This document shows positions 38,573 through 55,574 of a stretch of DNA of 64,000 bases, piece after piece. The notes below the pieces were generated by a model. The model worked only from the letters and a program-made list of their open reading frames with translations, was not told the DNA's origin and ran no database searches. The first letter of the stretch is position 1; each line of letters starts with the position of its first letter. Source of the DNA: Acetobacter fabarum (GTDB lineage: Bacteria > Pseudomonadota > Alphaproteobacteria > Acetobacterales > Acetobacteraceae); NCBI RefSeq assembly GCF_011516925.1, contig NZ_WOTG01000002.1, positions 496,001-560,000 on the forward strand. The letters are read 5' to 3'. The position numbers and the translations under genes were made by a program.

Positions 38573-38611
38573 CCAAAATGCATGAGAAGCCCGAAGTTTG
38601 CGTTTGCTTGG

Positions 38612-38639
38612 TTGACGTAGGAAAAAACGGCTTCATAGT
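38612..38639 (+). promoter_or_regulatory. Putative sigma-70 promoter of hup
   Basis: TTGACG (38612-38617) and CATAGT (38634-38639) spaced 16 bases, about 75 bases before the HU start, in the lon-hup gap. The -10 matches 4 of 6. Consistent with separate strong expression of HU. Confidence 0.42.
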
Positions 38640-38713
38640 GCGTTCAGGCAGCGGAGAGGCGGACGAAACCCGCCCGCCGCTCCTATGAATTGAAAGAAAG
38701 TGAAAGGCGTAAG

Positions 38714-39001
38714 ATGGAGAAGCCGCTTAACAAGCAGGAGCTCGTCTCAGCAGTAGCAGAGGCCGTTGACCTGCCGAAGGCTAAGGCCGGAGAAGTGGTC
38801 GACGCCGTATTCGGTGCGATTGAAAAAGCTCTGTCCACAAAGCAGGAAGTACGTCTGGTGGGCTTTGGCACGTTTGTGACCGCAACCCGCAAGGCTGCCA
38901 AAGGCCGTAACCCCCGTACCGGCGAGGAAATTGATATTCCGGCTTCTACCTCTGTCCGCTTCAAGCCGGGCAAGGCACTGAAGGACGCCGTTAGCAAATA
39001 A
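38714..39001 (+). CDS. hup: DNA-binding protein HU
   Basis: Nucleoid-associated histone-like protein that bends DNA. 95 residues, MEKPLNKQELVSAVAEAV start, with the HU signature GFGTFVTATRKAAKGRNPRTG near residues 50-70 and the C-terminal VRFKPGKALKDAV. GAAAGG lies 7 bases before ATG 38714; the frame is open to 38690, but the extra eight residues do not fit the family. The position directly after lon is conserved in proteobacteria. Confidence 0.97.
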   Translation: MEKPLNKQELVSAVAEAVDLPKAKAGEVVDAVFGAIEKALSTKQEVRLVGFGTFVTATRKAAKGRNPRTGEEIDIPASTSVRFKPGKALKDAVSK

Positions 39002-39026
39002 TCCTCCTTCGGATTTTATTTCAGAC

Positions 39027-39073
39027 CGGCCGGCAATTTCTTTGAAAAAAGGGGTTGCCGGCCGTTTTGTTTT
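39027..39073 (+). terminator. Rho-independent terminator of hup
   Basis: Stem CGGCCGGCAA (39027-39036) / TTGCCGGCCG (39055-39064) with an 18-base loop, followed by TTTTGTTTT. Perfect ten-base-pair GC-rich stem 26 bases after the HU stop. Confidence 0.88.
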
Positions 39074-39089
39074 ATGACACATAGGGCGC

Positions 39090-39164
39090 GGGCGATTAGC
39101 TTAGCGGTAGAGCATCTCGTTTACACCGAGAGGGTCGGCGGTTCGATCCCGTCATCGCCCACCA
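39090..39164 (+). tRNA. tRNA-Val (UAC)
   Basis: A 75-base tRNA. The acceptor stem is GGGCGAT/ATCGCCC. The anticodon stem TCTCG/CGAGA has loop TTTACAC and anticodon TAC. The T-arm has the GGTTCGATCCC loop, and CCA is encoded. It lies between hup and nuoA. Confidence 0.97.
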
Positions 39165-39186
39165 TTCCCAACATTGTGTGTTGTGG

Positions 39187-39243
39187 AGCAGAATAATTTA
39201 TTCTGCTAATGGCTTCCTCCTCCGGGCAGGGAGCCTTTTTTTT
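39187..39243 (+). terminator. Palindrome and terminator after tRNA-Val
   Basis: A 21-base near-perfect palindrome AGCAGAATAATTTATTCTGCT (39187-39207) is followed by the stem GGCTTCCT (39211-39218) / AGGGAGCC (39228-39235), which has one G-T pair, and then eight T. The second hairpin is a good Rho-independent terminator for the tRNA transcript. The palindrome may aid processing or bind a regulator; its role is unknown. Confidence 0.75.
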
Positions 39244-39376
39244 CGCCAATCCATTTTATTCACAACAAAGTGGCCGCGACCATACGCGTTCGTGCATGGC
39301 CGTCTGCATTTTGCGGGTCTAGGGTGACTGCATCAAACGGCTTATTACAAGCCTTTCATGCGTGCGGGAATTTTCC

Positions 39377-39742
39377 ATGCAGTCTGTTCTAGGCGATTAT
39401 GCCCCGGTTCTGATTTTTGGTTGCGTATCGGTTGTTATCGCGGCCGCAATGCTCGGTATGGCTCTGTTGAGCGGGCACCAAAAACCATATCCTGAGAAGC
39501 TCACGGCGTATGAGTGCGGGTTTGGCCCTTTTGATGATGCCCGGCGCCGCTTTGACGTGCGGTTTTACCTGGTGGCCATTCTGTTCATTATTTTCGATCT
39601 GGAGGTCGCGTTTCTGTTCCCCTGGGCTATCAGCCTGGGGCGGATCGGGCTGTTCGGCTTTTTGTCCATGCTTGGCTTTTTGGCCGTGCTGGGGATCGGC
39701 TTTTTGTATGAATGGCGCAAAGGCGCGCTGGACTGGGATTGA
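39377..39742 (+). CDS. nuoA: NADH-quinone oxidoreductase subunit A
   Basis: Small membrane subunit of complex I (ND3), three predicted helices, 121 residues. The conserved loop [29 protein letters not shown] contains the Cys typical of the quinone-access loop. ATG 39377 is used; the frame is open to a GTG at 39362. First gene of the nuo operon. The 130 bases upstream hold an inverted repeat GGCTT-ATTAC-AAGCC (39339-39353) just before the start, a possible operator, but no clear promoter. Confidence 0.96.
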
Positions 39743-39756
39743 GAGAGGACGCCAGC

Positions 39757-40320
39757 ATGACCACACATCACGACGAAAACGCCATTATGTGGAACAGGGA
39801 GGCTCTGCCGCCGGGGCCTGAGCAGGATGCGGTGGTGCGCGGCATTACCGGCGTTCTGGCTGAAAAGGGCTTTGTGGTTGCAAGCCTGGATAAGCTGGTC
39901 AACTGGGGGCGCACGGGTAGCCTGTGGCCCATGTCCTTCGGGCTGGCATGCTGCGCGGTGGAGATGATCCACGCGTATATGCCGCGTTATGACCTGGACC
40001 GTATGGGTATTATTCCACGCGGGTCGCCCCGTCAGTCTGATGTGATGATTGTGGCAGGGACACTCACCAACAAGATGGCCCCGGTATTGCGCCGCCTGTA
40101 CGAGCAGATGGCCGAGCCGCGCTGGGTTATTTCCATGGGGTCATGCGCCAATGGTGGGGGGTATTACCATTACTCCTACTCAGTTGTGCGTGGGTGTGAC
40201 CGCATTGTTCCCGTGGATGTGTATGTGCCGGGCTGCCCGCCAACGGCCGAAGCGCTCATTTACGGCATTATGCTGCTCCAGAAAAAAATTCGGCGGACAG
40301 GGACAATTCTCCGTGGCTGA
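39757..40320 (+). CDS. nuoB: NADH-quinone oxidoreductase subunit B
   Basis: Peripheral-arm subunit that carries cluster N2, the last electron donor to quinone. 187 residues with the cysteines in [19 protein letters not shown] and [19 protein letters not shown] precedes ATG 39757. The end overlaps the GTG start of nuoC by eight bases. Confidence 0.98.
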
Positions 40321-40972
40321 TATTTCAGTAAATCCAAGGCAGGCCCGGCTGGAAGGACAGTTGTCCTCTCTGGCATTTACGTTCCTTGCCTCCCAGCCCC
40401 ATGTGTCTTACGCGGCGGTAGAGAAGGGCGAACTGGTGGTGCACACAACGCGTGAGCATCTGGTGCCGTTCCTTACCCTTTTGCGTGATGACCCGCGTTA
40501 CAGGTTCGAACAGTTGATGGACCTGTGCGGTGTGGATTTTCCTGCGCGTGCCCAGCGGTTCGAGGTGGTCTATAACCTGCTGTCGGTTACCTATAACCGC
40601 CGGATCAGGGTTGTGGTCTGCACGGATGAATACGCGGCAGTGCCATCGGTGCATCATCTCTGGCCATGTGCGACATGGTGGGAGCGTGAGTGCTATGACC
40701 TGTTTGGCGTGCTGTTCTCCGGCCAGCCCGACCTGCGCCGTATTCTGACCGATAACGGGTTTGAGGGGCATCCGCTTCGCAAGGACTTCCCACTGACCGG
40801 GTATGAAGAGGTCCGTTATGACGCGGAGCGCAGGCAGGTTGTTAAAGAGCCTGTTTCGTTAACGCAGGATTTCCGTGATTTCGATTTTGTTTCTCCGTGG
40901 GAAGGTATGCTGACCTTACCGGGAGATGAAAAAGCGCACGAAGTCCGGCAGGGTATGAAGAGGTCCTCCTGA
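40313..40972 (+). CDS. nuoC: NADH-quinone oxidoreductase subunit C
   Basis: 30-kDa-type peripheral subunit lining the quinone arm. 219 residues from GTG 40313, which lies inside the nuoB stop region. The motif [26 protein letters not shown], followed by [18 protein letters not shown], is the Complex1_30K signature. The start is chosen by homology and context, since the open frame extends far into nuoB. The TGATG junction overlaps nuoD by one base. Confidence 0.96.
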
Positions 40973-42255
40973 TGACAAAACAGGATAACACCGAATCTCT
41001 CACGTTTGCGCAGACGATCCTGCGCGAAGATATTCCTCAAAGCCTTTTGCCAGATGAAAAAGCTTTGGAAATTGAGAAGAAGGTTGTCGAAATTGACTCC
41101 CATGCTCTCAATTTTGGCCCCCAGCATCCGTCTGCACATGGTGTGTTGCGTCTGGTGCTGGAAATGGAAGGGGAGCTTGTTGCCCGCGCCGTGCCGCATA
41201 TCGGCCTTTTGCACCGTGGCACGGAAAAGCTGATTGAATACAAGACGTATCAAAAAGCCCTGCCGTATTTTGACCGTCTGGATTACGTCTCCCCCATGTG
41301 CGAGGAGCAGGCGTTTGCTCTGGCCACGGAAAAACTGCTGGGTATTGATATTCCAGAACGCGCCAAGTGGCTGCGCGTCATGTTTGCGGAAATTACCCGT
41401 ATTTTAAACCATATTCTCAATCTGACTGCTATGGGTCTGGACTGCGGTGCGGTAACCCCGGCTTTGTGGGGATATGAAGAGCGCGAGAAACTTCTGGAGT
41501 TTTACGAAGCCGCGTCCGGCGCGCGCTTCCATGCCAATTACTTCCGTCCCGGTGGTGTTGCGCGGGATATTTCGGCAAGTCTGGAAGACCGGATTGGGGT
41601 GTGGGCCAAGGAATTTCCCGCCTGGATTGATGAGCTGGAAGGCCTGCTGACCGAAAACCGGATATGGAAACAGCGCACGGTTGGTATTGGCGTTTTTACA
41701 ACCGAGCAGGCTCTGGCCTGGGGGTTTAGTGGTCCGTGCCTGCGTGCATCTGGCGTGCCGTGGGACCTCAGGCGCAACCAGCCTTATGATAACTACCATA
41801 AGGTGGATTTTAATGTGCCCGTGACCCGGCAGGGTGATTCGTACGACCGCTATCTGGTGCGCGTTGCCGAGATGCGTGAAAGCGTCAAAATTATCGAGCA
41901 ATGCCTGAGCCAGATGCAGCCGGGTGACATTAAAATACAGGACCCCAAGTTCAGCCCGCCCCCCAGAGCGGACATGAAGCGCTCCATGGAGGCCCTGATC
42001 CATCACTTCAAGCTGTTCAGCGAAGGCTACCATGTGCCTGCAGGCTCCACCTACACGGCGGTGGAAAGCCCCAAAGGGGAGTTTGGGGTCTATCTGGTGG
42101 CTGATGGCAGCAACCGGCCGTATCGGTGCAAAATCCGGCCAACGGGTTTTGCGCATCTGCAGGCCATAGATGAACTCTCACGCCGCGGTATGCTGGCTGA
42201 CATGGTGGCCATTATCGGGTCGCTTGATCTTGTGTTTGGGGAAGTTGATCGATGA
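40972..42255 (+). CDS. nuoD: NADH-quinone oxidoreductase subunit D
   Basis: 49-kDa-type subunit forming the quinone pocket with NuoB. 427 residues. Conserved segments [33 protein letters not shown], and the C-terminal [20 protein letters not shown] are present, including the quinone-binding HPSAHG motif. The N-terminal 40 residues before [13 protein letters not shown] are slightly longer than usual. The start shares one base with the nuoC stop; the end overlaps nuoE by four bases. Confidence 0.98.
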
Positions 42256-42887
42256 GCACAGCCTGGACACCGGCAGAACAGCCGGACAGCTTTGTATTCG
42301 ATTCTGCATCGGAGGCGGAAATTGCTGGTGTTCTCAGCAAGTATCCGGAGGAGCGCAAGGCAAGCGCTGTTATGCCCCTGCTCTATATTGCGCAGCGGCA
42401 GATGGGGCGGGTAACCGGGAGCGCCTGGGTGCCCGTGGTGGCCATGGATGTTATTGCCCAGCGTCTGGGTATGGCGGCCATGCGGGTTTACGAAGTGGCG
42501 TCTTTTTACACCATGTTCAACACGCGTCCCATCGGGCGTTACCATTTACAGGTCTGCACCACCACACCGTGCTGGCTGCGTGGTTCTGATGATGTGGTGG
42601 AAGCCTGCCAGAAAGCGACAGGCATCCAGCATTTTGGAGAAACCAGTGCAGATGGCCTGTTTACCATGACAGAAGTGGAATGCCTTGGTGCCTGCGCCAA
42701 CGCGCCAATTCTGCAGGTTGATGATGATTTTTATGAAGATATGAACGCCGAACGCACGGCGCAGGTCATAGCCGAGTTGCGGGCAGGGCGCAGGCCCACG
42801 CCCGGCCCCATGATCGACCGTAATGTTTCGGCCCCCGAGGGTGGTCGCAAAACGTTGCTATCATCCTCCACGGCGGATCAGGAATAG
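42252..42887 (+). CDS. nuoE: NADH-quinone oxidoreductase subunit E
   Basis: 24-kDa-type subunit with [2Fe-2S] cluster N1a. 211 residues. The four cysteine ligands are visible as [10 protein letters not shown] near residues 101-110 and [11 protein letters not shown] near 141-151. A 35-residue C-terminal tail follows [11 protein letters not shown]. The ATG overlaps the nuoD stop (ATGA). Confidence 0.97.
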
Positions 42888-42898
42888 GAGAGACGGCC

Positions 42899-44227
42899 AT
42901 GCTGGCTGACAAGGACCGGATCTTCACCAATCTTTACGGGCAGAATGACTGGCGGCTGGAGGCAGCCCGCAAGCGGGGTGACTGGGCTAACACGGCAGAT
43001 ATTCTTGCCAAGGGCCGGGACGTCATTATTGCGGAAATGAAGGCCTCTGGCCTGCGTGGCCGCGGTGGGGCGGGTTTTCCTACCGGGTTAAAATGGTCTT
43101 TCATGCCCAAGCAGTCCGACGGGCGGCCGCATTATCTGGTTATCAATGGAGATGAATCCGAACCCGGCACCTGCAAGGACCGGGAGGTTATGCGCCATGA
43201 GCCGCATAAGCTGATAGAAAGTGCTCTGATCGCATCTTTTGCGATGGGGGCGCATGCGTCCTACATTTACATCCGTGGGGAGTTCTGCCGCGAGGCCGAG
43301 CGTCTGCAGGCTGCTATTGATGAAGCCTATGCCGCAGGGCTGCTTGGCAAAAATGCAGCAGGCAGCGGCTGGGATTTTGATTTCCGTATCCACAGAGGGG
43401 CAGGTGCCTATATCTGTGGTGAAGAAACCGCCTTGCTGGAAAGTCTGGAAGGTAAAAAAGGCCAGCCCCGCATGAAGCCGCCATTCCCCGCAGGGGTAGG
43501 ACTTTATGGTTGCCCGACCACAGTCAATAATGTGGAAAGTATTGCGGTTACGTCCACCATCATGCGGCGTGGGGCAGCCTGGTTTGCCGGGCTTGGACGC
43601 CCGAATAACGCGGGTTCCAAGCTCATGGCTATTTCCGGCCACGTCAATACACCTTGCGTGTTTGAGGAAGAGCTGGGTGTGCCGCTCAAGGACATCATAG
43701 AAAAGCACGGCGGTGGTGTGCGTGGAGGGTGGGATAACCTTCTGGCGGTTATTCCCGGTGGCTGTTCTGTGCCGCTGCTGCCCAAATCGGTCTGTGAAAC
43801 CGTTCTGATGGATTACGACAGCCTGCGTGCCGAGCGTTCCGGCCTTGGTACGGCCTGCATGATTGTTATGGACAAATCGACCGATATTATAAAAGCCATT
43901 GCAAGGTTCTCAAAGTTTTTCAAACACGAGAGTTGTGGTCAGTGCACCCCCTGCCGCGAAGGCACGGGCTGGATGATGCGCATGATGGACCGGATGGTGC
44001 AGGGGCGTGCGGATATTGAAGAAATTGATCTGCTTGAACAGGTCACGCGGCAGGTTGAAGGGCATACGATCTGTGCGCTCGGTGATGCCGCAGCATGGCC
44101 CATACAGGGGCTGATCCGGCATTTTCGTCCGGAAATGGAGGAACGGATCCGCCAGTACAAAGCCGCATATGGCAGTACCGGGCTGGTGCAGGTTCCCGCC
44201 GGTGGCGTTCCGGCAGCAGTGGAGTAA
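42899..44227 (+). CDS. nuoF: NADH-quinone oxidoreductase subunit F (NADH-binding)
   Basis: 51-kDa-type subunit that binds NADH, FMN and cluster N3. 442 residues: [16 protein letters not shown] (NADH/FMN glycine loop), [33 protein letters not shown] and the [4Fe-4S] motif [11 protein letters not shown] with a later Cys in [19 protein letters not shown] lies upstream of the ATG. Five bases separate it from nuoG. Confidence 0.98.
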
Positions 44228-44232
44228 CGGCA

Positions 44233-46314
44233 ATGGTCAGGGTAATTGTTGATGGTACGCCAGTAGATGTACCTCCCGGTTCCAGCGCGTTGCAGGCCTG
44301 TGAGGCCGCAGGCAAGGAAATCCCGCGGTTCTGCTACCACGAGCGCCTGTCTGTTGCGGGTAACTGCCGTATGTGTCTGGTGGAAGTGGCGCGAGCGCCC
44401 AAACCCGTTGCTTCTTGCGGGTTCCCCGTTGCGGATGGCATGCAGATTTTTACGGACACCGAAGTGGTGCGCCGTGCCCGCCGGGCCGTTATGGAATTTC
44501 TGCTGATCAACCACCCGCTTGACTGCCCGATCTGTGATCAGGGTGGGGAGTGTGATCTACAGGATCAGGCTTACGGTTATGGCTCTGGTGTTTCGCGCTA
44601 CAAGGAAGACAAGCGCGCCGTAACGGACAAGGATCTGGGGCCGCTGGTTAAAACGGTTATGACCCGTTGCATCCAGTGCACGCGGTGTGTGCGCTTTAGC
44701 ACCGAAGTGGCCGGTACCCCCGAACTAGGTCTGGTCTCACGCGGGGAAAATGCCGAAATCACCACATATGTGGAAAAAGCCCTGACCTCCGAACTCTCGG
44801 GTAACCTGATTGATGTCTGCCCGGTTGGGGCGCTCACAGCCAAGCCTTCGGCTTTTCATGCCCGCTCATGGGAATACAAGAAGACTGACAGTATTGATGT
44901 CATGGATGCGCTGGGCACCAATATTCAGGTGCAGGCCCGTGGCGGAGAAGTCATGCGGATTGTCCCGCGTGTGAATGATGATGTGAACGAAGAATGGCTG
45001 TCTGATAAAGGTCGTTTTTCCATCGATGGTCTCAAGCGTAAACGGCTGGACAGGCCTTGGGTGCGGGTTCATGGAAAAATTTCTTCTGTTTCATGGAAAG
45101 ATGCACTCATAGCCCTTGCGCGCCGGTTTGATGGCGTGCCGGGTGACAGGATTGGCGCCATAGCTGGTGATCTGTGTGATGCGGAAAGCCTGTGTGCCAT
45201 AAAGGACCTTTTGCAGAGCCTTGGCTCTTCCAATCTGGATTGCAGGCAGGATGGTGCCTGGTACGATACCAGCGCGCGTGCGGGCTACCTGTTTAACAGT
45301 GACATCAGTGGGATAGATCAGGCCGATGCATTGTTGCTTGTCGGCACCATGCCCCGGCATGAAGCCCCGGTGCTGAATGCGCGTATTCGCAAACGCTTTG
45401 TAGATGCTGGCCGGGGTGGTTTTCCCATTGGCATGATCGGCACGCCCTCGGCGGACATGACATATGACGTGACCGTTCTGGGGAATGGGCCGGATGTGCT
45501 GGCGGATATTCTAAGCGGGAAGAATGCGTTTGCCGAAGTTCTGCAAAACGCCAAAAACCCCATGATTATTGTCGGCCACTCTGCCCTGACCCGGCGTGAT
45601 GCCCCCGCAATCTATGCCGCCTGCCGCGAACTGGCTCATGCCTGTGGTGCTGTAACGCCTGAATGGCAGGGGCTGAACATTCTGCACACGGCGGCGTCCC
45701 GCGTTGGGGCGCTGGATCTTGGGTTCCTGCCCGGCCCGCATGGGTGCGATGCGGCCAGCATGCTCCGTGGTGGGGTAGAAATTTTGTGGCTGTTGGGTGC
45801 GGATGATGTGCAGCTTGATCGCATCCCGCCGGAAACATTTGTCGTGTATCTGGGCCACCATGGGGACGCCGCCGCACAACGGGCGGATATTATACTCCCC
45901 GGCGCAGCCTATACCGAAAAACCGGGCACATATGTGAACACGGCAGGGCGGGTGCAACGTGCTTTCCGCGCCGTGTTCGCTCCGGGGGAAGCGCGGGAAG
46001 ACTGGCGGATTATTCGGGCTTTTTCCGAAGTGCTGGGCCACACCCTGCCTTACGACACGCTGGAACAGTTGCGGGCGCATATGGCGCAGGTCAACCCGGT
46101 TTTTGCCATGAACGGTGGCAGTGTGCAGCGTCTGGCGGGCACAACGGGCGGACAGGCCGCGCCAGCCAGCGGGCAGGCGGGTGAACTTATGCCAGCTCCG
46201 TTCCGCCCTGTTATTCAGGATTATTACCAGACCAACGTCATAAGCCGCGCCAGCCAGACCATGGCTGAATGTTCAAAGGTTTATGGCGTGGCGCCTGCGG
46301 TTGCAGCGGAGTAA
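44233..46314 (+). CDS. nuoG: NADH-quinone oxidoreductase subunit G
   Basis: 75-kDa-type Fe-S subunit, 693 residues. The N-terminal [2Fe-2S] domain has [19 protein letters not shown], and the [15 protein letters not shown] and [10 protein letters not shown] segments bind further clusters. The molybdopterin-oxidoreductase-like body follows from about residue 220. ATG 44233 is selected for homology ([16 protein letters not shown]); the open frame begins inside nuoF. Five bases separate the stop from nuoH. Confidence 0.97.
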
Positions 46315-46319
46315 GGGCA

Positions 46320-47351
46320 ATGGCACATTTTTTCTACCAAACCCTTGTGGGCCAGATCCTGCTGATGCTGCTGGAAACACTGGCGGTACTGGTGCCGTTG
46401 CTGATTGGTGTTGCCTACCTTACGCTGATGGAGCGCAAGGTTATGGCCGCCATGCAGCGCCGCCGGGGGCCAAACGTGAACGGTGCCTTTGGTCTGTTGC
46501 AGGCCTTTGCCGATGCGATCAAGATGATTGTGAAGGAAACGGTTATTCCCGCAGGGGCCAACCGTGTGCTGTTCCTGTTTGCACCTTTCCTGACCTTTTC
46601 GCTCGCCATGGCTGCCTGGGCGGTTATTCCGACAGGGAACGGGCTGGCGGTTGCCAACATCAATGTGGGTATCCTTTACCTGCTCGCCATGTCCTCCCTT
46701 GGGGTTTACGGCATGCTTATTGCGGGGTGGGCCTCCAATTCGCGCTATGCGTTTCTGGGGGGCTTACGCTCTGCCGCGCAGATGGTTTCTTACGAGGTGT
46801 CCATCGGGCTGGTGATTGTGTCTGTCCTGCTGGCGGTGGGGAGCCTGAACCTGAACGATATTGTGCTGGCGCAACGGCATATCTGGTTCTGCGTGCCCAT
46901 GTTCCCCATGTTTATCGTGTTCTTTATTTCTGCTCTGGCGGAAACCAACCGAGCCCCGTTCGACCTGCCCGAAGGGGAGAGTGAACTGGTTGCGGGCTTT
47001 TTTGTGGAATATTCGTCGCTCGCCTTTGGCCTGTTCTTTCTGGGCGAATACGCGAACATGATCCTCATGTCTTCCATGGTCAGTATTCTGTTCCTTGGTG
47101 GCTGGCTGCCGCCTCTGGGCATTGCACCGCTGACATGGGTACCCGGTCCGCTCTGGCTGATTTTTAAAATCCTGTTCTGCCTGTTTGTCTTTATCTGGGT
47201 ACGCGCCACGTTCCCGCGCTATCGCTACGACCAGCTTATGCGGCTGGGGTGGAAGGTGTTCCTGCCTTTCTCGCTGCTGTGGATGATCGGCACGGCCGGG
47301 TTCCTTATGGCAACAGGCCTGCTGCCTCACATGGGAGGGGTAAATTCATGA
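46320..47351 (+). CDS. nuoH: NADH-quinone oxidoreductase subunit H
   Basis: Membrane subunit (ND1) that joins the quinone arm to the proton pumps. 343 residues with eight predicted helices. Signature stretches are [20 protein letters not shown] and [21 protein letters not shown], the latter with the acidic loop near the quinone site. The start follows the nuoG stop by five bases and the stop overlaps nuoI (ATGA). Confidence 0.98.
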
Positions 47352-47836
47352 GCGCTCTTGGCACCACATTGCGGTCTTTTCTGCTCAAGGAACTGGCCGC
47401 GGGCATGGTCTCCACCTTCCGTATGATGTTCCAGCCCAAAGTCACGCTGAACTACCCGTACGAAAAAGGGCCTCTGTCCCACCGTTTCCGGGGGGAGCAT
47501 GCCTTGCGGCGCTACCCCAATGGGGAGGAGCGCTGCATTGCCTGCAAACTGTGCGAAGCCACATGCCCGGCAGAGGCCATTACCATTGAAGCCGAACAGC
47601 GTGACGATGGCTCCCGCCGGACCACGCGCTACGACATTGACATGACAAAATGCATCTACTGCGGCCTGTGCGAAGAAGCCTGCCCGGTGGATGCGATTGT
47701 TGAAGGCCCGAACTATGAGTTCGCCACGGAAACCCGTGAAGAGCTGATGTACGACAAGGGCAAGCTGTTAGCGAATGGGGACCGCTGGGAATCCCTGCTC
47801 GCACGGAGGCTGGAACTCGATGCACCGTATCGTTGA
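47348..47836 (+). CDS. nuoI: NADH-quinone oxidoreductase subunit I
   Basis: 23-kDa-type ferredoxin subunit with clusters N6a and N6b. 162 residues; two [4Fe-4S] motifs [12 protein letters not shown] and [12 protein letters not shown]. The preceding [20 protein letters not shown] is typical. ATG 47348 overlaps the nuoH stop. Confidence 0.98.
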
Positions 47837-47872
47837 GCAGATGCAGACCACGCCAGGGCAGGAGGTTGGCCA

Positions 47873-48586
47873 ATGATGGCACAGCTCGTTTTTTACGTTT
47901 TTGCGGCGGTATTGCTGCTTTCGGCCTCCATGGTCATCAGCGCACGCAACCCGGTTCATGCGGTTTTGTTCCTGATCCTCGGCTTTTTTAACGCGGCGGG
48001 GCTGTTTCTGGTCGCTGGTGCCGAGTTTCTGGCCATGCTGCTGGTCATTGTTTACGTGGGGGCGGTGGCGGTTCTCTTCCTGTTTGTGGTGATGATGCTG
48101 GACATAGATTTCAGCCGCCTACGTGAAGGGTTCCAGCGTTATGCCCCTCTGGGGCTGTGCATTGGGGGTGTGCTGCTGGCCGAACTGGTCATGGCCTTCA
48201 GTAACTGGCGCATGGCCCCTGCGGGTGTGGTCGCACCTTTGGCCGTGCAGCCGGGGCTAACCAATACTGCGGCCTTGGGCACGGTTATTTACACGCATTA
48301 TGTGCTGCTGTTTCAGGCCTGCGGGCTGGTTCTGCTGGTCGCCATGATTGGCGCCATTGTGCTGACCCTGCGTGAGACGGCTACAGGCCGCCGCCAGAAT
48401 ATTGGCCGCCAGCATGCACGCACACGTGAAGAAACGCTGGAGCTTGTTAATCTGCCACTTGGCGAAAACGTGTTTGAGCAGGGAGGTTTCCTGCGGCCCA
48501 AAGGCTCCTATTACGAAATTGCGGTTCCCGGCTCCTATGGCGCGGGTGAGCCGGAAAAGACGGAAACTGAGGAGAAAGGCGCATGA
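47873..48586 (+). CDS. nuoJ: NADH-quinone oxidoreductase subunit J
   Basis: Membrane subunit ND6, five predicted helices in residues about 1-170, with the conserved [27 protein letters not shown] third-helix region. Residues about 172-237 form a soluble, charged C-terminal tail that ends in ETEEKGA. At 237 residues it is on the long side for NuoJ. Start at 47873 (MMAQ) or the next ATG at 47876. The stop overlaps nuoK (ATGA). Confidence 0.95.
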
Positions 48587-48906
48587 ATACGGCAATCGCG
48601 TCTGTAGGGCTGGGGCCTTACCTGTTTGTCAGTGCGGCCCTTCTGGTTCTGGGGGTGTTCGGGATTTTTCTGAACCGCAAGAACATTATTGTTCTGCTCA
48701 TGTCCATGGAACTGATCCTGCTTTCCGCAAACCTCAATCTGGTTGCGTTTTCCTCGGCTCATGGGGACCTGTCGGGGCAGGTCATGGTGCTGTTCGTGCT
48801 GACCATTGCTGCGGCCGAAGCCGCCATTGGTCTGGCTATTGTTACGGTTTACTTCCGTAACCGCGGCTCCATCCAGGTCGAAGACGTGACGATGATGAAG
48901 GGATGA
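48583..48906 (+). CDS. nuoK: NADH-quinone oxidoreductase subunit K
   Basis: Small membrane subunit ND4L, 107 residues, three helices. Conserved glutamates are in [19 protein letters not shown] (second helix) and [15 protein letters not shown] (third helix). Coupled to nuoJ and nuoL by four-base overlaps on each side. Confidence 0.97.
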
Positions 48907-50855
48907 GCAGCGTTATGCAAACAGAACTCACTCTGTTTTCCGTTGCCGTGCTAACGCCTCTGGCGGGGGCGGTTGTGGCGGGCCTTGGTGGCCGCTTTAT
49001 GGGGGATACTCTCGCCAAGGTTGTAACCATTGCCTGTATGGCGGTTGCTGCCCTGTGTAGTGTGGGTGCGCTGTGTGCGGCATGGCTTGGGGGTTTCCCC
49101 CACGCTGCTGTTCCGCTGGCGCAGTGGGTGCATGCCGGGGGCTTTGATGCAACATGGACCTTACGGTTTGACACACTCTCCGTGACCATGACCGCCATGG
49201 TGCTTGTGGTGTCGCTGCTCGTGCATTGCTACAGCATTGGCTACATGAGCCATGAGAGCATGCCGACCTACCGGTTTTTCTCCTACCTTTCGCTCTTCAC
49301 CTTTGCCATGCTCATGCTGGTCTCTTCCAATGACCTGATCCAGCTTTTCTTTGGCTGGGAAGGTGTAGGCTTGGCCAGTTACCTGCTGATTGGCTACTGG
49401 TATGACCGCCCGGCCGCTACGGCTGCGGCTATCAAAGCCTTTGTGGTCAACCGTGTGGCGGATCTGTTTTTTATTGTTGGCATTGGCCTGATTTACGTTC
49501 TGTTCCACTCGGTGCAGTACGATACCATTTTTGCTGCCGTGCCTGCGGTGCTCAACACCCCTTACACGCTCTGTGGTGTTTCCTTCCGTATGCTGGAAGT
49601 CATCTGCTTCCTGCTGTTTGTCGGGGCTATGGGCAAGTCGGCCCAGTTGTTCCTGCACACATGGTTGCCCGACGCCATGGAAGGCCCCACACCTGTTTCC
49701 GCCCTTATTCATGCGGCTACCATGGTTACGGCGGGTGTGTTCCTTATGGCGCGTATGTCGCCATTGCTTGAGTTTGCGCCGGGTACACGCACCTTTGTTA
49801 TTCTGATCGGGGCAACAACCTGCTTTTTTGCCGCAACCGTTGGCATGGTGCAGCCTGACATTAAGCGGACTATTGCCTATTCTACCTGCTCGCAGCTTGG
49901 CTACATGTTTGCAGCCGTTGGGGTGGGGGCGTATCAGGCGGCGGTATTCCACCTGACCACACATGCGTTTTTTAAAGCACTGCTGTTCCTTGCCGCTGGT
50001 TCGGTCATTCATGCCATGCATGATGAGCAGAACATGTTCCGTATGGGCGGCCTGTGGAAAAAACTGCCCGTGACCTACGTGGTCATGTGGCTGGGCAGTC
50101 TGGCGCTGGCCGGGGTTTATCCGTTTGCCGGGTATTGGTCCAAGGATGCCATTCTCAACGCGCTCTGGGCGTCCGATGCCTCTTACAGCCATTACGCATG
50201 GGCCATGGGTAGCATTACTGCGTTCCTGACCGCGTTTTATAGCTGGCGGCTCCTGTTTCTGGTCTTTCATGGCAAACCGCATGATGAGCATGCCCGTGAT
50301 CATGCGCATGAAAGTCCGGCGGTTATGAGCGTGCCGCTGCTGGTGCTGTCCATTGGTGCGGTTGTGGCCGGTGTGACGCTGGCACCGTTCTATATTGGCG
50401 CGCATCAGAGTGCGTTCTGGAACGGGGCGATTGTGAACGCGCCTGCCAACCACATTATGGAGGCGTTCGAGCACGTGCCTGCGCTTATTGCGCTGCTCCC
50501 CAGCCTTGCAGGGCTTGCGGGTATTGCGCTGGCGTTTGTGCTGTATGTGAGCGCACCGCATGTGCCGGCCACACTGGCCCGGAGCTTTGGGCCGATTTAC
50601 CGGTTCCTGCTCAACAAATGGTATTTTGACGAACTGTACGACAGGATTTTCGTGCGCCCATATGCCGCACTGGCCCGTGTGCTGTGGAAAGGTGCGGATG
50701 AAGGGGTCGTGGAAGGTCTGCCGCTTGATATCGTGCGTGCCACACGGGATGGCGCGTTGCAGGCGGCCCGGCTCCAGAGCGGTTCCATCGCCATTTATGC
50801 CTTTACCATGCTGGCAGGACTTGTGGTGCTGCTGACAGTTGCGCTGTGCGGGTGA
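48903..50855 (+). CDS. nuoL: NADH-quinone oxidoreductase subunit L
   Basis: Distal proton-pumping subunit ND5, 650 residues, antiporter-like fold. It contains [18 protein letters not shown], the pump-channel region [29 protein letters not shown] and the C-terminal lateral-helix region with [17 protein letters not shown]. Length and C-terminus are normal, so it is not a fusion that absorbed NuoM. Its ATG overlaps the nuoK stop. The next full gene is nuoN, not nuoM. Confidence 0.98.
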
Positions 50856-50861
50856 TTTAGC

Positions 50862-50921
50862 ATGACCAACGCCATTCCGACCCAATCCTCTTCCTATCCT
50901 CTGCGGAGTGCGCAGCGATGA
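50862..50921 (+). pseudogene. nuoM: 19-codon remnant at the nuoM position
   Basis: Starts with ATG six bases after the nuoL stop and reads MTNAIPTQSSSYPLRSAQR before a TGA that overlaps the nuoN ATG (ATGA at 50918-50921). This is the junction architecture expected of nuoM, which normally encodes a roughly 500-residue pump subunit between nuoL and nuoN. Nothing else of nuoM remains in the window. The simplest reading is an in-frame deletion that kept the first and last codons, preserving translational coupling to nuoN. A chance mini-ORF or an assembly collapse cannot be excluded. Confidence 0.6.
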
Positions 50922-52360
50922 GTGTGACAGTGTTCAACTGGACCGTAGCCCTGCCTGAAATTGTGCTTGCCCTGTCGGGTATTGTCATTCTGGTGGCCGG
51001 GGTGCTCCAGCGGAAAGGGGAAGGGTTTTTCCCCGCCGCCATACTCAGTCTGCCAGCCTTTCTGGTCTGTGGTTTTCTGGTTGTGCTGTCTCCTTCGGGG
51101 GCGGGGTATGCCGGAACCTTTGTGAATGATGGCTTTGCCCGGTTCATGAAGGTGCTCATTCTGGCCGGTGGTTTTGTGGCCGTGGCGCTGAGCGTAAGTT
51201 ACCGCACTGCCGACCGGCGGCCCCTGCCGTTTGAAACCCCGGTGCTCATGCTGTTTTCCACGCTGGGGGCCATGCTTATGGCATCCTCAGCCAATTTGAT
51301 GACACTGTTTGTCGGGCTGGAACTCTCCTCCCTGTCCATTTACATCCTGTGTGCTCTGGAACGGGATAATGTTCTCTCGTCCGAAGCAGGGATGAAGTAT
51401 TTTATCCTCGGTTCTCTGGCGTCGGGCCTGCTGCTGTATGGCATCTCGCTCGTGTATGGGTATGCGGGCACCATGGAATATGCCGGACTGGTGGATGCGG
51501 TCCGGGCCGCAGCCATGCCTCCCATGGGGCTGGTCGTGGGGATTGTCTTTATCGTTGTCGGCCTGTGCTTCAAGCTCTCTGCCGTGCCGTTCCATATGTG
51601 GACGCCCGATGTGTATCAGGGTGCGCCAACACCCGTTACGGCATATATGGCTGGGGCCCCTAAATTTGCAGCCTTTGCCCTGTTCCTGCGTGTTATGGCC
51701 GGGCCGTTTGGCTCTGTTGCTCCCCGCTGGCAGATACTAGTGGAAGCGGTCTCTGTCCTGTCCATGGTTTACGGGGCTTTTGCGGCTATTCCGCAGACCA
51801 ATATCAAGCGGCTCATGGCTTATTCCTCCATCGGGCACATGGGCTATGCCATGATGGGGCTGGCGGCGGCCTCCACAGCCGGTACGCAGGCCACGCTTAT
51901 TTATCTGGCCGCCTATTTTGTTATGAATGCTGGTGTTTTTGCAGGCATTACGGCCATGCGCCGCAACGGGCGGGAAGTAAACTCCATTGCGGATCTGGCG
52001 GGCCTTGGGCGCTCGGACCCGGCTATGGCGCTTGCTCTGGCCGTGTTCATGTTCAGCATGGTCGGCGCGCCACCTCTGGCTGGCTTTTTTGGCAAGTTCA
52101 TGGTTTTTGCAGCAGCGTGGCAATCCGGCCTTTACGTGCTGGTGTGCATTGGCGCATTGTCCAGCATTGTCGGAGCCTATTATTATCTGCGGGTTGTAAA
52201 AGTTATGTATTTTGATGCGCCAGCCCATGCGCTGGACCGCCCCGCACCCAGCCTTCTGTTTGTTTCGGGCGGGATGGGTGTTGCAACTGTTGTTTTTGCT
52301 GTTGTGCTTGGGCCAATCATGTCTGTGGCGCATCAGGCCGCACTTGCTCTGGCTGGATGA
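50918..52360 (+). CDS. nuoN: NADH-quinone oxidoreductase subunit N
   Basis: Proton-pumping subunit ND2, 480 residues with about 14 helices. Diagnostic segments are GLELSSLSIYILCAL, FKLSAVPFHMWTPDVYQGAPTPVTAYMA and KRLMAYSSIGHMGYAM. The Lys and Glu of the pump channel are in place. It is normal in length. Start overlaps the remnant ORF stop; its stop overlaps birA by four bases. Confidence 0.98.
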   Translation: MSVTVFNWTVALPEIVLALSGIVILVAGVLQRKGEGFFPAAILSLPAFLVCGFLVVLSPSGAGYAGTFVNDGFARFMKVLILAGGFVAVALSVSYRTADRRPLPFETPVLMLFSTLGAMLMASSANLMTLFVGLELSSLSIYILCALERDNVLSSEAGMKYFILGSLASGLLLYGISLVYGYAGTMEYAGLVDAVRAAAMPPMGLVVGIVFIVVGLCFKLSAVPFHMWTPDVYQGAPTPVTAYMAGAPKFAAFALFLRVMAGPFGSVAPRWQILVEAVSVLSMVYGAFAAIPQTNIKRLMAYSSIGHMGYAMMGLAAASTAGTQATLIYLAAYFVMNAGVFAGITAMRRNGREVNSIADLAGLGRSDPAMALALAVFMFSMVGAPPLAGFFGKFMVFAAAWQSGLYVLVCIGALSSIVGAYYYLRVVKVMYFDAPAHALDRPAPSLLFVSGGMGVATVVFAVVLGPIMSVAHQAALALAG

Positions 52361-53106
52361 GCGGGCAGGGTAATTTCTGGCGGCTCACCTGTTTTGATGA
52401 GCTGCCATCGACCTCCGATTATTGCCTGAACGCCTGCCGTTCGGGCGACCCTGTAGCCGGGCTTGCAGTTTTGGCCCGGCGGCAGACCAAAGGCCGGGGT
52501 AGCCGCGGCCGTACATGGCTGGATGGTGGGCAGGGGCTTGCACTCAGTGTTGTGCTGGACGGCACGCAGGCCGGGCCGGAAGCGCTGGGAGGCTGGCCTT
52601 TTGTGGCGTCCCTCGGGTTTTATGATGGGCTTTTGCGTGCGCAGCCCGCGGCCCGGCCCCACCTCATGATCAAATGGCCGAACGATATTCTGCTGGATGG
52701 GCGCAAGATGGGGGGTATCCTCATCGAGCGGGAGGGGCCTTACGTTCTTGTCGGCCTTGGAGCCAATCTGGTCTCGGCTCCTGACCCGGATGTGCTGGAG
52801 CGCACGGTGGCCTGTCTTGCACAATGTGGCTCTGTCCCGGATGTGGAAGCTGTGGCCCGGTATGTGCTGGACGGGCTTACATTCTGGTCTGAGCAATGGC
52901 GGCAAAAAGGCTTTGCCAGCATTCGCGCAGCCTGGCTGGAAAGGGCGCATCCTGTGGGGACCCCCCTTGTCGTTCAGGGCGGGACTACTTATGAGAAGGG
53001 GCTCTTTGCAGGCTTGGCACCAGATGGCCGCCTGCTGCTGGACACGGAAGGTGGCATGAAGACAATCGCAACAGGGGATATTCTGCTTATGGAAAAGGGC
53101 GCATAG
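52357..53106 (+). CDS. birA: Biotin--[acetyl-CoA-carboxylase] ligase
   Basis: Attaches biotin to the AccB subunit of acetyl-CoA carboxylase. 249 residues with the ATP/biotin motif [11 protein letters not shown] near 47-57 and [19 protein letters not shown]. The N-terminal DNA-binding domain of E. coli BirA is absent, so it is a class I ligase without repressor function. Coupled to nuoN by an ATGA overlap, as in many alphaproteobacteria, and two bases before coaX. Confidence 0.95.
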
Positions 53107-53108
53107 GA

Positions 53109-53921
53109 GTGCTACTTGTCATTGATGCAGGGAATACCAATGTTGTGTTTGCTGTACACGACGGCGAAAAATGGCGTGGTGTATGGCGGATTACCATGCA
53201 GCCCCAGCGGACTTCGGATGAATATGGGGTGTGGCTGCAAGCGCTGCTGAAAACGCAGGGTCTGACCTCTGATGATATTGAAGGGGCTGTTATAGGCACG
53301 GTGGTGCCTGCGGCCCTTTACCATTTGCGTACTTTATGCCGCCAGTGGTTTGCTGTAGAGCCACTGCTGGCCTCCGCCCGGCTGGACTGGGGGTTTGCCA
53401 TCAAGATGGATAACCCGGATGAAGTCGGGGTGGACCGTCTGCTCAATGGTCTGGCCGCTCATTACACCTATGGTGGCCCGTTGACGGTTATAGATTTTGG
53501 CACAGCCACCACGTTTGATGTGGTGGATCAGGAGGGAAGTTACTGCGGCGGTGTTATTGCGCCCGGCATCAATCTGTCGGTCGAGGCATTGCATCAGGCT
53601 GCGGCAAGGCTCCCCCGTATTGGTATTGGTCGCCCCGTAGGGGAGTCCGCTATTGGGCGGAATACAGTTGCAGCCATGCGCTCAGGCGTGTTCTGGGGGT
53701 ATGTAGGGTTGATCGAGGGGATCGTTGAGAGGATCCGCCGTGAAGTGGGGCCTTCCATGAAGGTGCTCGCAACAGGCGGTCTGGCTCCGCTCTTCTCGGA
53801 GGGGACAACGGTCTTTGACCATGTGGATTCAATGCTGACCCTTAACGGGTTGCGCTTGCTGGCGGGGCGAAACCCCCTGCCGAAACTGACAGTAGAACGA
53901 GATTTTTTGGCTGAAGGATAA
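53109..53921 (+). CDS. coaX: Type III pantothenate kinase
   Basis: First enzyme of coenzyme A synthesis, phosphorylating pantothenate. 270 residues with the ASKHA ATP-binding motif [16 protein letters not shown] at the N-terminus, the [10 protein letters not shown] segment and [14 protein letters not shown] followed by GGVIAPGI. Type III enzymes need a monovalent cation and resist CoA feedback. GTG start at 53109 with AGGAG close by. Lies between birA and rnj. Confidence 0.96.
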
Positions 53922-53930
53922 TCGGATAAT

Positions 53931-55574
53931 ATGACTGAACAGAACGGCGATCTGGCCTTTCTGCCCTTGGGCGGAACGGGTGAGATCGGCATGAACCTCA
54001 ACCTGTATCGTCAGGGCGATACATGGTTGGCGATTGATTGCGGCATTGGCTTTAGCGGGAACGATACCCCCGAAGCAGAAATTCTGGTGCCCGACCCCGC
54101 CTTTATTGTCGAGCGGCGGAACCAGTTGGCCGGGCTGGTTATTACCCATGCGCACGAAGACCATATTGGTGCCGTGGCGCATGTGTGGCCCATGCTGCAA
54201 TGCCCCATTTACGTTACGCCGTTTGCAAGTGCCGTACTGCGCCGCAAGCTGGCCGAAGCCCGCCTGATGGATGTGCCGATCCGCGTGATCATGCCCGGTG
54301 CGCGCTTTAATGTGGGCCCGTTTGATATTGAGTTCGTGCCGGTTACGCATTCCGTGCCCGAAGCCCAGTCCATGGTCCTGCGTACTCCGGCAGGGATTGT
54401 GGTTCACACAGGCGACTGGAAGTTTGACCCCGAACCGCTGGTTGGCCCCGCAACAGACCTGAACCGCCTTGCCGAAATTGGTGAGGAGGGCGTTCTTGCA
54501 CTGGTGTGCGACAGCACGAACGTGATGAAGCCCGGCCCTTCGCGCTCCGAGTCCGAAGTGCGCGTGAGCATGACCGAACTGGTGGCAAGCCTTAAGGGGC
54601 GCATTGCCGTGACCTGCTTTGCCTCCAACGTGGCGCGGGTGGAAACCATTGCCATGGCCGCACAGGCCGCTGGCCGCACGGTTGTGCTGGTCGGGCGTTC
54701 GCTGCGTAACCTGGATACGGCTGCGCGTGAGTGTGGTTATTTGTCTGGTGTTCTGCCGTTCCTGAGTGAGCAGGACGTGAACGATGTGCCTGATGACCAG
54801 CTGCTCATGATCATCACGGGCAGCCAGGGCGAGCCGCGCTCGGCTCTGTCGCGTATTTCCATGGACGTGCATCCCAATATTTCCCTCGGGGAAGGGGATA
54901 CGGTCATTTATTCCAGCCGCATGATTCCGGGTAATGAGCGGGCGATCATGGCGGTGCAGGATAATCTGGCAAAGCGTGGCGTTAAGGTTATTACCGACCG
55001 TGAACACTTTGTGCATGTTTCGGGCCATGCCACGGGTGGTGACGTGCAGAAGATGTACGAACTGCTCAAGCCCCAGCATGTGGTGCCGGTGCATGGCGAA
55101 TGGCGGCACCTGACCGCACAGGCCGCTCTGGCGCAGGAAATGGGTATTGCTCCCATTCTGCTGGAGGACGGGGATATTCTACGTCTTTCCCCGGGTAAGC
55201 TGGAAGTGGTGGATACCGCCCCCACAGGCCGCCTCGCGCTGGACGGCAACCGCCTGCTGCCCATGAATGGTGGCGTGCTGGCAGCCCGCCGCAAAATGCT
55301 GTTTAACGGCATTGTCATTGGCAGTTTTGCTGTGGATGACGAAGGCTTTGTTATTGGCGACCCCAAGGTGAGCGCGCCCGGCCTGCTGGACCCGGATGAT
55401 CTGGAAAGTGTGCGTGTGCGCGAGGAATTCGCCAACGCGCTGGACGTAATCCCCGATGAACTGCGCAACGAGGATGGAGCCTTCCGCGAGGCCGCCAAAA
55501 CCGCCCTGCGCCGCGCTCTTGGCCGCAAGCTGCAAAAGCGCCCGCTGGTGGATGTGCACGTGCTGCGCGTATAA
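53931..55574 (+). CDS. rnj: Ribonuclease J
   Basis: Metallo-beta-lactamase fold RNase with endonuclease and 5'-to-3' exonuclease activity on mRNA and rRNA. 547 residues. Zinc motifs THAHEDHIGAVAHV near residues 71-84, HTGDWKFDP, the beta-CASP region SGHATGGD and VPVHGEWRHL are present. It ends the nuoN-birA-coaX-rnj group and is followed by a terminator. The nine-base gap after coaX indicates cotranscription. Confidence 0.96.
   Translation: MTEQNGDLAFLPLGGTGEIGMNLNLYRQGDTWLAIDCGIGFSGNDTPEAEILVPDPAFIVERRNQLAGLVITHAHEDHIGAVAHVWPMLQCPIYVTPFASAVLRRKLAEARLMDVPIRVIMPGARFNVGPFDIEFVPVTHSVPEAQSMVLRTPAGIVVHTGDWKFDPEPLVGPATDLNRLAEIGEEGVLALVCDSTNVMKPGPSRSESEVRVSMTELVASLKGRIAVTCFASNVARVETIAMAAQAAGRTVVLVGRSLRNLDTAARECGYLSGVLPFLSEQDVNDVPDDQLLMIITGSQGEPRSALSRISMDVHPNISLGEGDTVIYSSRMIPGNERAIMAVQDNLAKRGVKVITDREHFVHVSGHATGGDVQKMYELLKPQHVVPVHGEWRHLTAQAALAQEMGIAPILLEDGDILRLSPGKLEVVDTAPTGRLALDGNRLLPMNGGVLAARRKMLFNGIVIGSFAVDDEGFVIGDPKVSAPGLLDPDDLESVRVREEFANALDVIPDELRNEDGAFREAAKTALRRALGRKLQKRPLVDVHVLRV

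Follow-up and report, generated by a model that had tools for sequence, protein, structure and literature searches.

The 64-kb stretch of DNA analysed here (the window) carries a nuo operon on its plus strand. The genes nuoA to nuoK (positions 39362 to 48906) lie upstream of a complete nuoL (48903 to 50855; 650 aa; TIGR01974, 788.7 bits, cut-off 407.5), and downstream of it is a complete nuoN (50918 to 52360; 480 aa; NF004440, 568.2 bits, cut-off 519). NCBIfam models above their cut-offs named nuoB to nuoJ, nuoL, and nuoN. The gene order A to L, then N, given in a preliminary description of the window holds at this level for these genes; nuoA matched three subunit A models, every one under its cut-off, and nuoK is an ORF (48583 to 48906) taken from the list of open reading frames. 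The same description stated that nuoM is missing between nuoL and nuoN, and this was borne out. The nuoL stop codon TGA occupies positions 50853 to 50855, the nuoN ATG begins at 50918, and the sole ORF in between is MTNAIPTQSSSYPLRSAQR (19 codons; 50862 to 50921, plus strand). As had been described, its ATG is located six bases past nuoL, and its stop codon shares ATGA (50918 to 50921, plus strand) with the nuoN start. On the same strand, a Shine-Dalgarno-like GCGGGTG for the small ORF is located within the nuoL end (50848 to 50854; duplex energy of -6.8 for the stretch preceding the start), and the nuoN Shine-Dalgarno sequence, CGGAGTG, is located within the small ORF (50904 to 50910; dG of -6.1 for the stretch preceding nuoN). 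An Rfam scan of positions 38000 to 54000 detected tRNA only.

Besides nuoL and nuoN, a PF00361 search of the genome to which the window belongs (68 contigs; completeness, 100) revealed one further gene, on contig C1 (496369 to 497889, minus strand; GTG start; 506 aa). It encodes a full-length NuoM, since TIGR01972 scored 556 bits (cut-off, 263.8) and spanned residues 6 to 484 of the 506 aa; NF004499, the top equivalog model, scored 575.3, slightly below its cut-off of 585. The nearest protein among the named relatives listed, in a list that may omit the genome of the window itself, is NuoM of A. lovaniensis DSM 4491 (99% identity), and the best solved relative by sequence is chain M of 8qby. 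Upstream of the gene lies mutL, and its neighbors on the facing strand are an EamA transporter gene and a gyrase B/ParE-type gene; nuoM is thus not found at the usual, albeit not defining, position between nuoL and nuoN. We conclude that nuoM is displaced rather than lost and that it is intact elsewhere in the genome. This settles which of the four options offered in the preliminary description applies: nuoM sits elsewhere. The idea that NuoL or NuoN had absorbed NuoM is ruled out by their normal lengths, which had been pointed out correctly, and by the separate nuoM gene. The nuoM on the other contig is full length and has the pump residues. E144, K223, K254, and E396 are kept in all 45 aligned outside copies, and the four residues are also present in 2/2 outside copies of genus g100 (see below) and in 43/43 operon copies. 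We take their E. coli equivalents to be E144, K234, K265, and E407.

NuoM of the displaced type was present in all 49 genomes of the genus Acetobacter. The nuoL-nuoN junction was readable in 47 of them, and not one had room for nuoM (gaps of 37 to 148 nt). Of the two unread junctions, that of G227 gave a partial NuoN match only, and that of G214 lies in a region missing from the assembly. The latter genome, with NuoM but neither NuoL nor NuoN, was considered as a case of a stranded nuoM; this was rejected in favor of an assembly gap, because only 76 bases of the 17.5-kb query (operon plus flanks) matched the assembly. Likewise, nuoM was absent from all 23 junctions read from 10 other genera with a detached nuoM (gaps of -4 to 34 nt). 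In one Acetobacter locus, L221 (genome G224), nuoL is apparently frameshifted near its end in the assembly. The layout of the window's junction resembles a clean deletion scar, as would result from a recent in-frame deletion in one strain, a deliberate knockout, or an assembly collapse, with a defective complex I as the consequence. Given the 47 readable Acetobacter junctions and the 23 junctions of 10 genera without nuoM, and the full nuoM elsewhere, such an event is extremely improbable. A reduced complex I, deliberate removal, and a collapsed assembly, the other three options of the preliminary description, are not supported: nuoM is absent from every readable Acetobacter junction, including that of the single-contig genome G201.

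A family survey of 397 genomes showed a gap in the NuoM identities among the matches listed. Identities of at least 58% were found in Acetobacter and in the genera g73, g42, g60, g10, g40, g71, g14, g56, g86, and g2, as against 53 to 54% in g100 and at most 55% in the other genera opened. In the checked genomes of the genera with at least 58%, nuoM was far from nuoN, whereas in the other opened genera (e.g., g80, g81, g43, and g45; at most 55%) it lay within nuoL-nuoM-nuoN. In 26 of the 37 loci titled Acetobacter, nuoM lies right behind mutL, and at this site it is preceded by a DUF3035 gene and by genes read as ileS and lspA. The other 11 loci (A. oeni, A. estunensis, and others) had no mutL in the stretch examined, which in L060 starts merely 213 bases ahead of nuoM. 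At three loci of this second site (L059, L063, and L064), opening of the ORFs upstream of nuoM revealed MlaA- and MlaC-type genes, an assignment based on Pfam naming in L059 only. In nine further Acetobacter stretches (L198 to L206), mutL was beside nuoM in four and not in five. Among the 23 loci of the 10 other genera, mutL was followed by nuoM at a distance of 95 to 180 nt in 18 (the spacings use script-called starts, a few of which are uncertain) and of 0.8 to 3.4 kb in three (L182, L184, and L187; g71 and g56), and it was outside the stretch examined in two. Thus, in Acetobacter and 10 other genera, subunit M is encoded outside the nuo operon, mostly right behind mutL. Native-type NuoL is missing from three genomes, G022, G025, and G048 (L254 to L259), which harbor two NuoL of a 40 to 42% type, each with a NuoM after it. 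That their second NuoM copies are survivors of a lost operon was rejected; they were read as belonging to other complex I clusters because they adjoin their own NuoL of the 40 to 42% type.

The genus g100, which is probably Granulibacter (three genomes; 2.7 Mb), has two NuoM, one encoded between nuoL and nuoN and one with neither gene adjoining. Its copies were placed in NuoM trees built from 90 sequences, a 70-row tree that left out 20 of them (mostly near-copies) and a more careful 47-row tree that left out 43, and in a NuoN tree from which 1 of 58 rows was left out as too short. In the 47-row tree, the outside copies, including that of g100, formed one clade with 100/100 support. Within it, the g100 outside copy branched first, the remainder being supported at 97/85, and the g100 operon NuoM grouped with ordinary operon NuoM (98/94). 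An independent duplication within g100, which would place both copies together, was rejected (p-AU of 8.9e-77). Furthermore, the g100 outside copy carries six of the eight diagnostic columns of the acetic-acid-bacterial type, and it adjoins a class I tRNA-synthetase-like gene, a different place. In the NuoN tree, the acetic acid bacteria formed one clade (SH-aLRT of 99), and g100 NuoN fell among the ordinary operons with weak support.

Because g100 has an operon copy together with an outside copy of the acetic-acid-bacterial type, the likely history is a takeover followed by loss of the operon copy. A divergent second nuoM would have arisen or been acquired in an ancestor and would have coexisted with the operon copy, as is still the case in g100; the operon nuoM was then probably deleted, with the second copy taking over. 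Alternatively, the operon nuoM could simply have been transposed, reinserting behind mutL and then evolving fast, with the g100 outside copy explained by a later transfer. The ambiguous source of the outside clade leaves some room for this: a long stem (0.57) places it next to the fast-evolving Acidiphilium-type NuoM, without these long branches it attaches among Acetobacteraceae on a branch of 0.85, and its grouping with the g100 operon copy was not rejected (p-AU of 0.29). We nevertheless regard transposition as unlikely, since the g100 outside copy falls outside the branch of the acetic-acid-bacterial copies, stands at another place, and shares most of the diagnostic columns. Gene transfer between g100 and the acetic-acid-bacterial lineages is possible.

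Other Acetobacteraceae genera have, besides an operon copy, a solo NuoM for which neither nuoL nor nuoN was present in the adjacent 1.5 kb: L307, L308, and L310 (g4), L309 (g12), and L290 (g17). Those included in the tree (L290, L307, L308, and L309) formed a clade of their own, and in the three that were checked (L290, L307, and L309) the TM8 lysine, presumably K265 of E. coli, is an asparagine. Uniting the Roseomonas-like solo copies with the outside clade in a single clade was mildly rejected (p-AU of 0.027; quick tree).

A conserved box resembling CTCGGCRGAACGTGANC was detected 86 to 97 nt ahead of the detached nuoM start (for example, at L046:9908-9924, L058:9911-9927, and L167:5913-5929). 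In Acetobacter it is present at both kinds of site, including 6 of the 11 second-site loci, and it was also found in g73, g42, and g10 and, more degenerate, in g60. With at most three mismatches, it was found in 37 of 64 upstream regions and in none of those from g40, g71, g14, g56, g86, g2, and g100. Since second-site and mutL-side loci share the box, nuoM seems to have taken its own control region along when it moved, at least where the box is present. A sigma-70 scan around nuoM yielded no consensus promoter. The box had no match in the 64-kb window at up to three mismatches, nor in L262 or L263 at up to four, and thus gave no sign of a shared regulon.

Published data on A. pasteurianus bear on whether the displaced gene is used. 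In the proteomics data of PMC10742644, nuoI is numbered 3350 and nuoN 3354, which leaves room for J, K, and L only and not for nuoM, and nuoM is numbered 1610. Of four comparisons reported there, two show a decrease of the NuoM protein (to 0.62 and 0.33) and the other two an increase (to 2.16 and 1.78), and the corresponding values for nuoN are 0.93, 0.31, 2.22, and 2.12; according to the article text, the comparisons are taken as lag and exponential phase. In these data, the A. pasteurianus NuoM protein is made and varies in parallel with the operon subunits, a parallel change that could reflect complex stability. In addition, NuoM of the displaced type was absent (E of 1e-120) from 13/13 examined genomes having only NuoL of a 39 to 45% type (nine listed as nonmatches and four absent among the matches listed), the pattern predicted for a gene that accompanies its complex. 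We suggest that the region upstream of the displaced nuoM drives its expression and that the subunit joins complex I in trans.

What then remains in the operon is the small ORF. A bridging ORF, defined by an ATG or GTG start and at least 10 codons, was found in 46 of the 47 Acetobacter junctions, the exception being L269. In most cases it comprises 13 to 22 codons; its beginning, which varies with the choice of start codon, lies between 8 nt before and 16 nt after the nuoL end, and in 44 of the 46 it ends at nuoN in ATGA or TGATG (the other two being L216 and L143). At L140, L275, and L277, a 148-nt gap contains a 51-codon bridging ORF with a GTG start, which replaces the usual short one. The ends of the small ORF are similar in geometry to those of nuoM in intact operons, where the median distance from the nuoL end to the nuoM start is 4 nt and 26 of 33 loci show a nuoM-nuoN overlap of 4 or 1 nt. 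Because of this spacing, the layout is indeed apt for an in-frame deletion of nuoM that kept its end codons, as the preliminary description had proposed; the other part of that proposal, kept NuoM codons, found no support at the N terminus, where the window's ORF did not match the first NuoM residues (P = 0.41).

By itself, the window's junction is unremarkable, since a loosely defined bridging ORF arose in 18.5% of shuffled gaps (mean of eight junctions of the window's cluster). Across the genus, 18 of 19 junction clusters had a bridging ORF versus 8.2 expected from dinucleotide shuffles (P of about 1e-7), a value that is optimistic because the test was framed after the ORFs had been seen and the clusters are related. 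None of the 23 junctions of the other genera had a bridging ORF, which is no independent control because their gaps are all at most 34 nt. This absence counts nonetheless, along with other points, against the small ORF being a literal nuoM fossil whose first codons are those of nuoM. When 19 cluster representatives (one peptide per cluster; C-terminal end excluded from the shuffle) were compared with a NuoM N-terminal profile, their summed similarity gave a P value of 0.005, the best representative being L228 (MTHAVFPVFS; P = 0.003), and a looser test (26 peptides; looser shuffle) gave 0.001. However, 16 of the 19 representatives had P values above 0.05, the rows are related, and the window's ORF, as stated above, was not among the similar ones. 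We therefore consider a fossil origin doubtful.

Several features point to a role in translation. In 42 distinct junctions (with the best-scoring start taken where there were several), pairing with the 16S tail gave median duplex energies of -6.8 before the small-ORF start and of -6.1 for the nuoN Shine-Dalgarno sequence within the small ORF, compared to -2.4 for 65 other ATGs. Weak Shine-Dalgarno sequences were found at L143 (-1.6) and at L220, L221, L225, and L216 (about -3). Many Acetobacter small ORFs end in a recurrent C-terminal RSA, since the nuoN Shine-Dalgarno sequence is encoded there. The peptides differ widely between groups, and several are rich in Phe and Ser. In six equal-length groups, pN/pS was 0.89 overall and 0.85 without the last six codons, and therefore the peptide is hardly constrained; single groups ranged from 0.67 to 3.4, the latter value resting on few changes. 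A functional microprotein, perhaps an accessory peptide of complex I, would fit the recurrence of the ORF across Acetobacter at mostly similar length and the Phe/Ser-rich composition of several peptides. The near-neutral pN/pS, the divergence between groups, and the explanation of the recurrent end by the nuoN Shine-Dalgarno sequence make it quite improbable.

The sequence features of a coupling ORF are present: a stop at the next start, an own and an internal Shine-Dalgarno sequence, and a peptide that is not conserved. Because of the Shine-Dalgarno sites, the near-neutral peptide, and the RSA end explained by the nuoN site, we infer from the sequences that the small ORF is a translational-coupling ORF, kept for its translation and not for its peptide. 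Ribosomes ending nuoL translation would go on to translate the small ORF, whose ATGA or TGATG overlap would let them start again at nuoN, and the ORF would thus stand in for nuoM as a ribosome bridge. In summary, we consider it probable that nuoM was displaced by takeover, with NuoM acting in trans, and that the ORF in the Acetobacter gap is translated as a ribosome bridge. For the broader proposition that the acetic acid bacteria swapped the middle pump subunit of complex I for a divergent copy under its own control and that in Acetobacter a content-free ORF evolved or was kept as a replacement of the nuoM bridge, selected for being translated but not for its peptide, we see about even chances.

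If so, the case shows how a subunit of an obligate complex can be replaced and leave its operon, with the two-copy genus as a likely living intermediate. In addition, whether short ORFs can be kept solely for carrying ribosomes to the next gene could be tested on it by natural comparison. For annotation, it means that complex I of vinegar bacteria should not be called incomplete on the grounds of an operon without nuoM. In the literature, NuoA-N was called complete in A. cerevisiae (PMC13209655). PMC4596401, whose nuo tree was built on nuoHIJKLN, without nuoM, reports a single nuo operon for A. pasteurianus, Komagataeibacter, and Granulibacter; according to the same paper, Gluconacetobacter diazotrophicus has two and Gluconobacter oxydans has none. 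For G. diazotrophicus, PMC9368920 lists nuoM within one nuoA-nuoN set, which may be either of the two operons; this counts against the reading of a detached nuoM. The open-licence literature searched yielded no paper on the bridge ORF, on the genus with two copies, or on the takeover of the subunit.

As a protein, the displaced NuoM resembles the NuoM/ND4 family (TIGR01972, PF00361) in being full length, scoring above the TIGR01972 cut-off, and having the four pump residues; it differs in that the Acetobacter gene is located outside the nuo operon and belongs to a divergent clade with diagnostic substitutions. The detached gene itself is already published as a locus tag: A. pasteurianus SKU1108 has nuoA-nuoN plus a separate nuoM, APT_00690 (PMC5158111). 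This is the same arrangement, mentioned in passing, and the passage on SKU1108 comments neither on the gap and the small ORF nor on relatives or the origin of the gene. Split complex I gene sets, reported in most clades surveyed by PMC12361115, are alike in that Nuo subunits are spread beyond one cluster, whereas here one subunit is consistently detached across genera, and there is a two-copy genus in addition. Finally, short ORFs that merely deliver ribosomes have been proposed (PMC12548453) and engineered (PMC13255528). They share with the Acetobacter ORF the stop at the next start, the internal Shine-Dalgarno sequence close to that stop, and the unconstrained peptide; in contrast to them, the Acetobacter ORF, as read from sequence only, replaces a removed 1.5-kb gene in a complex I operon.
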